Origin: Bacteriovoracaceae bacterium
GTDB taxonomy: Bacteria; Bdellovibrionota; Bacteriovoracia; Bacteriovoracales; Bacteriovoracaceae
Direction of reading: 5' to 3'
Assembly: GCA_016784965.1 (NCBI GenBank)
Contig: JADHTQ010000044.1
Coordinates: 1 to 37,243 of the forward strand
DNA length: 37,243 bases
Part shown: positions 22,833 through 30,822 of the stretch, in pieces
Numbering within the stretch: the stretch's first letter is position 1
Layout of the letters: each line of letters starts with the position of its first letter
Notes under the pieces: generated by a model
Seen by the model: the letters and a program-made list of their open reading frames with translations, nothing else
What the model was told of the DNA's origin: nothing
The model's database searches: none
Program-made: the position numbers and the translations under genes

Positions 22833-22868
22833 ACATATATATGTACATATATATGTACATATATATGA
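22833..22868. promoter_or_regulatory. Three tandem 12-bp palindromes, probable toxin-antitoxin operator
   Basis: ACATATATATGT (itself a perfect palindrome) is repeated head to tail at 22833-22844 and 22845-22856, with a third copy at 22857-22868 changed only in its last base. The array ends 21 bp before the toxin start codon. TGTACA at 22854-22859 with TAATAT at 22877-22882 (17-bp spacer) would be a promoter overlapping the array. Such arrays in front of toxin-antitoxin operons usually bind the antitoxin cooperatively. Confidence 0.6.
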
Positions 22869-22888: not shown

Positions 22889-23203
22889 ATGAAATGGAAT
22901 GTAGTTTTTTCAAGACAGGCTAGGAAATCAATACGATCAAACAAGACACCTCAAGAAATAAAAGATCTTGCGGAGGCACTTGCTGATGAATTGGAAGATC
23001 TTGGCCCAACAAGAAATCATTGGGCAAATTATGGCAAGTTTAAAGGTCTACCTAGAGGGGTTGATAAAAGACATTGCCTCCTTAGAAAAGGCAACCCCAC
23101 TTGGGTTTGCTGCTGGCAAGTTGAAAAGAAACGAATAACCATCGAGGTATATTATGTCGGTACACACGAAAATGCTCCTTACTCAAAAGAAAGAGATCAT
23201 TGA
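22889..23203 (+). CDS. RelE-superfamily toxin
   Basis: A 104-residue basic protein. The C-terminal pattern KRHCLLRKGNPTWVCCWQVEKKRITIEVYYVGTHENAPY matches RelE-like cytotoxic translational repressors that carry HCHLKxGxPTxVxCW and YYxGTHExAPY. These inhibit translation through ribosome-dependent mRNA cleavage. The Shine-Dalgarno is weak (GAAAGAG at distance) and the start is close to the proposed promoter, so initiation may be inefficient. It overlaps the antitoxin gene by 50 nt. Toxin-first order suggests HigBA-like control. Confidence 0.82.
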   Translation: MKWNVVFSRQARKSIRSNKTPQEIKDLAEALADELEDLGPTRNHWANYGKFKGLPRGVDKRHCLLRKGNPTWVCCWQVEKKRITIEVYYVGTHENAPYSKERDH

Positions 23204-23528
23204 AAAAATTGAAAAAATTGATACTAGTAAAGATTTAGCATTACTCAATTCAATTATCGATAAAATGTTTCCAGAAAAAACATTTTCCAAGGAAGAGGTT
23301 TTTGGAAATAAAGATCAAGGCCCTCTCGCCAAAAATGGTCGATATCTAAAAAGCATGAGGTTAAGAGAAGGATATGACCAGGTATCATTATGTAAAAAAT
23401 TGAAGAATATCAAGCAACCAAATATATCTGCTTGGGAGAATGGAAGAGAGCCCATTCCAAATGAGCAAGCAAAAGCTCTTTCGAAAATTTTAAAATGCGA
23501 ATTAAAACTTTTGACAAGGAAGTCGTAA
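23154..23528 (+). CDS. XRE-family antitoxin
   Basis: A 124-residue protein with N-terminal helices (residues 10-45, KKEIIEKIEKIDTSKDLALL) and a C-terminal XRE helix-turn-helix (about 65-120: LKSMRLREGYDQVSLCKKLKNIKQPNISAWENGREPIP). ATG 23154 is preceded by GAGG at 6 nt; an internal ATG at 23172 is possible. The long overlap with the toxin gene couples translation. It is the likely binder of the 22833-22868 palindromes. A terminator follows directly. Confidence 0.82.
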   Translation: MSVHTKMLLTQKKEIIEKIEKIDTSKDLALLNSIIDKMFPEKTFSKEEVFGNKDQGPLAKNGRYLKSMRLREGYDQVSLCKKLKNIKQPNISAWENGREPIPNEQAKALSKILKCELKLLTRKS

Positions 23529-25947: not shown

Positions 25948-26640
25948 CTACTCATCTGTTTCATCATCCAAGTAAGCAAGAAAATCATCCTCTTGCTCTT
26001 TATCTATAGTAACATTACTTTCACTTACTTTCTCTTTGCTTGACTTAGGTTTGCTTGCTTTAGGTTTGCTTGCCTTAGGTTTGCTTGGTTCATCTTCATC
26101 TAACAAGTAAGCATTAAGATCAGCTTCTTTCTCTTTGTCTTCACTCACTTTAGCTTCACTTTCTGCTACTTCATCTAAATCTAGCGCTCCCACAAATGTC
26201 ATCTCTGACACATCCGGGACATCTGTAGCACTCTGGGTACTGGTCGCCATATCATCACGCTCAATGGCAAACTCAAAATCATTTATTATGGATTCTATTA
26301 CTTTTTTTGTAATTGGCTTTGCCAGATAACCATCTGCAGCATGTAAGCTCTTTTGGTGTTTGATAAATCCCTTTGTTGACATACTACTGGAAACGATGAC
26401 TCGCTCAGCCATGTCATAACAAATTAATGACTCATTTAGTTTTCTCACCCCTATATCATCATCGTCCTCATCGGCTTCAGTAGCTTCCCTATCGAAATCT
26501 AGCATTACAAGGGAGAATTCATCCTCACTTATATTCTCTTTCACCTCTTGGGCAGTACTGCAAACGCAGGGGTCAAATTCTTGCTGCTCCATGACAACTT
26601 TTATTAGTTTGCTATCTTCACTAAATAAAATGAGCTTCAT
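25948..26640 (-). CDS. Receiver-domain protein with acidic/SKPK repeat tail
   Basis: A 230-residue protein. Residues 1-125 read as a CheY-like receiver: ILFSEDSK (acid pocket), MLDFDRE with D48/D50 at the phosphorylation site, SSS (83-85) at the Ser/Thr switch position and K108 in YLAKPIT. An acidic insert (EATEADEDDDDIG) follows the phospho-site. The C-terminal 100 residues are charged, with a repeated SKPKA unit and two related motifs LNAYLLDEDEP and FLAYLDDETDE. No output domain, so it likely acts by protein contact. AAGGAA precedes the ATG. The PilZ gene lies 100 bp upstream. Confidence 0.78.
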   Translation of the reverse strand: MKLILFSEDSKLIKVVMEQQEFDPCVCSTAQEVKENISEDEFSLVMLDFDREATEADEDDDDIGVRKLNESLICYDMAERVIVSSSMSTKGFIKHQKSLHAADGYLAKPITKKVIESIINDFEFAIERDDMATSTQSATDVPDVSEMTFVGALDLDEVAESEAKVSEDKEKEADLNAYLLDEDEPSKPKASKPKASKPKSSKEKVSESNVTIDKEQEDDFLAYLDDETDE

Positions 26641-30664: not shown

Positions 30665-30704
30665 TCTCTACCTCCAAAACAAAAGACCTGTACTACATTT
30701 TTAT

Positions 30705-30733
30705 ATTATAAATTTATATTATAAATTTGTCAA
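30705..30733 (-). promoter_or_regulatory. Consensus promoter with 17-bp palindromic operator in the spacer
   Basis: Minus strand: TTGACA (30733-30728), exactly 17 bp, TATAAT (30710-30705), both full consensus. The spacer 30711-30727 is a perfect odd palindrome (AATTTATA, T, TATAAATT). A second, degenerate copy (6 of 8 matches in one arm) is centred 13 bp further at 30698-30714 and overlaps the -10 box. A protein bound to either site would block RNA polymerase. Located 41 bp before the PadR gene. Confidence 0.8.
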
Positions 30734-30822
30734 CAAGACACTGTTTACTAGTGCTAATGAGATACAAAAACATTATATTGGCAATTCTACAAATATTTTA
30801 CATAGATGTTTTTTTTGCTTAT

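Follow-up and report, generated by a model that had tools for sequence, protein, structure and literature searches.

A conserved array of AAATTT boxes in the promoter of a divergent, stand-alone PadR-like gene of Bacteriovoracaceae, most likely used for autorepression

The gene for a 114-residue PadR-like protein (padR below), found in the 37,243-bp stretch of Bacteriovoracaceae DNA analysed here (the whole stretch is called the window in what follows), is preceded by a full-consensus promoter on which lies an element of three self-complementary AAATTT boxes spaced at a 13-bp pitch. Directly established are the promoter, the three-box element, the conservation of that element in five lineages and the lack of any other conserved neighbour. 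The best explanation, to which we give a probability of roughly 0.7, is that the protein is a stand-alone divergent PadR-like autorepressor that binds this iterated operator in its own promoter; the DNA site is unlike those known for the PadR family, and the gene most likely shuts itself off through it.

The promoter and the three-box element

The two promoter hexamers, TTGACA (30733–30728) and TATAAT (30710–30705) on the minus strand, are separated by 17 bp and match the consensus in 12 of 12 letters. A search of both strands of the window for TTGACA-N15..19-TATAAT gave this match only, which bears out an earlier reading of the DNA (the sequence-only reading below) that had called it a full-consensus promoter. 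The same reading had described the whole spacer, AATTTATAATATAAATT, as one perfect 17-bp palindrome. It is palindromic, and it gains one base in each direction to become a 19-bp palindrome that reaches one base into each hexamer (the last of the −35, the first of the −10) and is the only odd-centred perfect palindrome in the window with arms of at least 8. The second copy that had been reported over the −10 also exists, but it is not degenerate as had been thought; rather, it is part of an exact tandem repeat with a period of 13 (100% match). What did not survive was the choice of the single spacer palindrome as the operator, since palindrome and tandem repeat are both parts of the three-box element, which covers about 32–40 bp. 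Table 1 lists these features.

Table 1. Positions of the features of the padR promoter region in the window
Feature	Position	Strand	Basis or remark
Full-consensus sigma-70-type promoter, TTGACA-17-TATAAT	30705..30733	−	Consensus match
Weaker overlapping promoter-like site, TAAACA-18-TATAAT	30718..30747	−	−10 between box 1 and box 2
19-bp perfect palindrome, AAATTTATAATATAAATTT (box 1 + N7 + box 2)	30710..30728	strand-neutral	Palindrome scan
13-bp exact tandem repeat, TTTATATTATAAA x 2.2	30700..30728	strand-neutral	Repeat search
Box 1, AAATTT	30723..30728	strand-neutral	Minus-strand first base is last base of −35
Box 2, AAATTT	30710..30715	strand-neutral	Minus-strand last base is first base of −10; invariant in five lineages
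Box 3, degenerate, AAAAAT (4/6)	30697..30702	−	AAATTT in the other four lineages
40-bp gap-free conserved element (three boxes + 4 bp each side)	30693..30732	−	Alignment
padR-like gene, 114 aa	30320..30664	−	Predicted winged helix-turn-helix + one C-terminal helix

Taken alone, the palindrome in the window could be a by-product of a 13-bp repeat in AT-rich DNA; the element is more than chance because it is kept in relatives (below), and not because it is palindromic.

Other repeats were seen elsewhere in the window. A second tandem-palindrome array, 2.9 copies of ACATATATATGT (22833–22867), holds a 34-bp perfect palindrome (22834–22867) and is followed some 20 bp downstream by a 104-aa ORF (22889–23203) that has the look, by eye, of a HigB/RelE-type toxin but no Pfam match, and that overlaps a helix-turn-helix gene (23154–23528, PF01381). 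This array is probably the operator of a toxin-antitoxin pair; elsewhere in the genome it is matched at one place only, with 3 mismatches. At 26035–26087 a 15-bp tandem repeat, TTTGCTTGCCTTAGG (3.5 copies), encodes KPKAS repeats in the 3′ part of a 230-aa ORF (25948–26640, minus strand) whose product resembles a response regulator.

Conservation of the element in relatives

The genes compared with that of the window are those of Halobacteriovorax marinus (L004, 83% identical), a Bacteriovoracaceae MAG (L005, 75%), a Bacteriovorax MAG (L006, 56%, frameshifted) and a fourth lineage (L009, 71%), the first three being the closest named relatives of the window's genome; loci L007, L008 and L010 are on the same contigs as L004, L005 and L006, and each contig was counted once. 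Upstream of padR the 40-bp block aligns without gaps in all five lineages, which belong to the same bacterial family. The letters that match AAATTT in boxes 1, 2 and 3 number 6, 6 and 4 in the window, 6, 6 and 6 in L004 and L006, and 5, 6 and 6 in L005 and L009. These 86 matches of a possible 90 at the 13-bp pitch compare with at most 71 at other spacings from 7 to 21; none of 1000 dinucleotide-preserving shuffles reached 86 (their maximum was 69 with the pitch left free), and none of 1000 reached the three-box score of the window alone. Mean pairwise identity is 0.72 in the 40-bp element versus 0.30–0.33 in non-overlapping 40-bp flanking stretches, which were compared at fixed offsets without gaps, and inside the element it is 0.91 in the boxes versus 0.56 outside them. 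We conclude that the window element is a diverged member of this set, in which the boxes were kept and the spacers were not. The sequence-only reading would have been contradicted by absence of the palindrome upstream of orthologous padR genes, and AAATTT-N7-AAATTT is found there in all four other lineages.

AAATTT reads the same on both strands, and an even array of such boxes therefore has symmetry axes both at box 2 and between boxes. Averaged over the lineages, 10.8 of 13 pairs match around box 2, 10.4 around the axis between boxes 2 and 3, and 9.0 around the axis between boxes 1 and 2, which is that of the palindrome noted earlier. The best axis is the centre of box 2 in the window, L005 and L006, whereas L004 and L009 have it between boxes 2 and 3. 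The L006 element is a perfect 40-bp palindrome even though the padR gene there (362–712) is broken by frameshifts; the far end of the L006 contig resembles its inner part in reverse complement, and mis-assembly is possible.

Promoter candidates in the relatives, scored with promoter weights, are weaker than that of the window at their best and are placed elsewhere. The best ones in L004 (TTGTCT-18-TATATT) and L005 (TCCACA-18-TATATT) place the −10 in the gap that separates boxes 1 and 2, close to the weaker overlapping site of the window, and L006 and L009 have weak candidates only. The −35/−10 consensus is not conserved, and the full-consensus promoter is peculiar to the window's genome. The best-scoring candidate nevertheless overlaps boxes in five of five lineages, which is what promoter occlusion requires, though AT-rich DNA favours such overlap anyway.

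Distribution and neighbourhood of the gene

When genomes of the order were searched with a profile of four of the proteins, 5 of 129 carried the gene at E ≤ 1e-4, every one from a single family; across the phylum 6 of 368 did so at E ≤ 1e-6. The gene is thus rare and patchy. A search for a mobile origin found no relative in viral contigs (92 pattern matches, 0 confirmed), phages or plasmids. Neighbourhoods were compared by blastp (E 1e-4) of all ORFs of at least 50 aa from the window, L004, L005, L006 and L075, the last being the 19-kb neighbourhood of L009. The only gene to match among the five loci was padR, in the four where it is intact (window, L004, L005 and L075). In L004 and L075 the next downstream gene is convergent, so that padR stands alone there. 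Because padR is the sole common gene and is followed by a convergent gene at these two loci, the element goes with padR itself.

One homologue that is 44% identical (G158) is preceded by neither the three-box element (it scores 14 of 18 at best) nor a long dyad; with G158 included, 5 of the 6 homologues found with at least 44% identity have the element upstream. Three distant homologues, L011, L012 and L003 (27–31% identical; E values 5.7e-5, 0.003 and 9.6e-6, respectively), were left out of this count as ordinary-looking PadRs. A different dyad lies upstream of L012, some 58 to 30 bases ahead of the match, and this gene and likewise L011 and L003 have CATAGTAT/ATACTATG-like inverted repeats upstream that are unlike the AAATTT array.

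Search for further targets

In four of five genomes the three-box pattern, sought with a tolerance of 2 mismatches, is matched best by the padR site alone; the exception is the genome of the window, where another place differs from the pattern by 1 mismatch and the padR site by 2. A model of all five elements (R1) ranks the padR site first in five of five genomes with 21.5–28.9 bits, and gives the best non-padR place 16.7; R1 was trained on the same five padR sites and was applied to 150 first-pass candidates per genome, so true targets could escape it. A model of the other four elements (R2) gives the window element 9.5 bits (E 8.35) and rank 21 of 23 in its own genome, and the four best competitors under R2 (L058, L073, L022 and L043) are inside predicted ORFs. 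Leave-one-out weight matrices placed the held-out padR site first in four of five sets and second in the L004 set, the DNA scanned being 37 kb for the window, 400 kb for each of L004 and L009, 27 kb for L005 and 16 kb for L006; the first-ranked site of the window has 21.2 bits in this simple matrix, from scores given without positions.

A genome scan with the palindrome had been suggested as a way to find other targets. The 17-mer has no second match with up to 1 mismatch in its own 4.59-Mb genome, and AAATTT-N7-AAATTT occurs there at 15 other places versus 11 for a reversed control. The matches to this pair of boxes, to R1 and to the three-box pattern that were turned into loci in the five genomes gave 46 non-padR rows, which include some places found twice; 31 are inside predicted ORFs, and comparison of the ORFs downstream of the 15 others gave one place found twice as the sole match. 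The scan therefore yielded no target recurring across genomes among the 46 rows. It is biologically odd for a regulator to have no visible target other than itself.

The PadR-like protein

The predicted single-chain model, made from four sequences, has a pLDDT of 81.5 and the order of elements H-H-H-E-E-H, and thereby shows, as a prediction, the PadR-s2 architecture of about 110 aa with a winged helix and a single C-terminal helix. Its best fold match is the small PadR Rv3488 (5zhc; Z 13.5, 2.1 Å over 100 residues), and replication terminator protein is lower among the matches (1f4k, Z 10.6; 2dqr, Z 10.7). Scores against family models fall below their cut-offs, both for Pfam PF03551 (17.1 bits versus a gathering cut-off of 27, E 0.0057) and for NCBIfam TIGR03433 (35.5 bits versus a curated cut-off of 101.8, E 8.4e-9), and a six-frame search of the window's own genome with the Pfam PadR model gave nothing at E 0.01.

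The orthologues were aligned with the G158 homologue and the three ordinary PadRs. The signature tyrosines described for PadR proteins at the YGxE and EGTLYP positions (PMC6457526) are both absent, and the two positions hold A/S and F in four of four orthologues; G158 and the three ordinary PadRs have Tyr at both. That G158 has both tyrosines and no element gives a hint, from this one case, that protein and operator may have changed together. The recognition-helix motif EGTLYPxLxRLE reported for PadR-s2 (PMC3506622) is also absent; GKSLVFS(K/R)(L/V)NxLC is present instead, with GKSLVFS standing where ordinary PadRs have KEGTLYP. The wing/helix-4 motif, given as G(P/R)RKYYx(L/I)TxxG for PadR-s2 (PMC3506622), is recognisable with an insertion, PR-(VKKKV)-KFFSIS-KG, and these five extra residues leave the wing more basic (NPRVKKKVKFF). 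The central Trp that the same source places in the C-terminal helix of PadR-s2 (PMC3506622) is missing, and the single Trp70 is in the first wing strand; Trp70 and Cys61 are the sole Trp and the sole Cys and are invariant in four of four intact proteins. The fold is predicted to be PadR-s2-like with a longer basic wing. The site had been said to differ from the ATGT/ACAT sites of typical PadR proteins, and we agree, as none of the five lineages has ATGT-N6..12-ACAT within 150 bp upstream of the gene.

Among characterized PadR-s2 proteins, cdPadR1 of Clostridioides difficile R20291, as described in PMC5050560, is alike in being small with one C-terminal helix and in having more than one inverted repeat with an AT-rich core in its own promoter; it binds two, one of which lies over the −35/−10. 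Its half-sites, however, are TACT/AGTA with N11–12, in contrast to the N7-spaced AAATTT boxes, and its genome is reported to contain about 200 motif matches, whereas no recurring second target was found here. LmrR of Lactococcus lactis is similar in its length of about 110 aa, and the account in PMC5428041 has it autoregulated from an operator that two dimers can share, but it differs in its ATGT/ACAT half-sites 8 or 10 bp apart and its transporter target lmrCD (PMC5428041), and in the Trp of its C-terminal helix (PMC3506622), none of which has a counterpart here. The operator of Listeria LftR was likewise found by a palindrome search in its own promoter and its wing is needed for binding, but according to PMC6457526 it has both signature tyrosines, which the window protein lacks. 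The 13-bp box pitch is close to the 12–14 bp from centre to centre that, by our arithmetic, ATGT-N8..10-ACAT implies. Among the literature matches listed, no Bdellovibrio/Bacteriovorax PadR protein or AAATTT PadR operator stood out.

Alternative explanations

Could the element instead be bound by a global DNA-binding protein (a nucleoid protein or an unrelated regulator) for which padR is just one target among others? As an AT word with a narrow groove AAATTT is generic, and the spaced pair of boxes is somewhat more frequent in the genome than its reversed control (above); the box should then recur, yet two thirds of the non-padR rows (31 of 46) are inside ORFs, the ORFs downstream of the other 15 are not common between genomes, and the padR site tops the five-sequence model in each of the five genomes, albeit after training on these very sites. 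We consider such a protein an unlikely binder. An equally unlikely origin, in our estimate, is a recent 13-bp slippage duplication in a strong AT-rich promoter, with no operator function in the window. The exactness of the period-13 repeat, the degenerate box 3 and the low rank of the window site under the other-four-lineage model would all fit such a duplication, but the relatives hold the same pitch with different N7 spacers, so that the pitch predates the exact repeat, and the three-box score of the window by itself was out of reach of the shuffles.

An RNA-level role for the dyad, as a hairpin in the leader that governs padR translation, would suit the perfect 40-nt inverted repeat of L006 and also L005, where about 16 bases separate the end of box 3 from the start codon. 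With a hairpin a single stem should persist, however, and the best symmetry axis varies between lineages while boxes and pitch persist, which favours a DNA-bound array over a fixed RNA hairpin; most of the window element, moreover, is upstream of the transcription start expected from the −10, and we regard a hairpin as very improbable. Still less credible is a replication-terminator (RTP)-like factor with the element as a Ter-like site beside its own gene. RTP is autoregulated from sites beside its own gene and is among the fold matches of the protein, but PadR entries score higher, and GC skew has the same sign for at least 180 kb on both sides of padR in genomes G092 and G098, so that the gene is not at the terminus in either; the idea of a terminus site was rejected, as no sign change occurs at padR in these genomes.

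Proposed mechanism and significance

Under the preferred explanation, autorepression through the iterated operator, dimers of the 114-aa protein would bind pairs of boxes 13 bp apart in the AAATTT array. The bound array would extend from the −35 end past the −10 as far as roughly the transcription start, and the dimers on it would keep RNA polymerase off, so that the gene would be repressed by its own product and the concentration of that product held down. Two dimers could share the array, for which LmrR offers a precedent in the account of PMC5428041, and the lengthened wing (NPRxKKKxKF) may recognise AAATTT through its narrow minor groove. The tight auto-repression released by a signal that the sequence-only reading had suggested is likewise an inference, and it is speculation that a ligand, or oxidation of the lone Cys61, brings the release about.

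More tentatively, these genes could represent a Bacteriovoracaceae branch of PadR-like proteins that lost both tyrosines and lengthened the basic wing and of which several dimers share AAATTT boxes at the 13-bp pitch, each gene being self-contained, controlling nothing but itself, and moving from place to place together with its operator and with no conserved partner gene. The circuit is of an ordinary kind; the conserved operator on a divergent stand-alone PadR-like protein is what is unusual. If this explanation is true, there would be a mode of reading DNA that differs from the ATGT/ACAT code ascribed to PadR proteins, in a minimal system of one gene and about 40 bp, and with neither a conserved partner nor a visible second target it raises the question of what the regulator is for in these bacteria.
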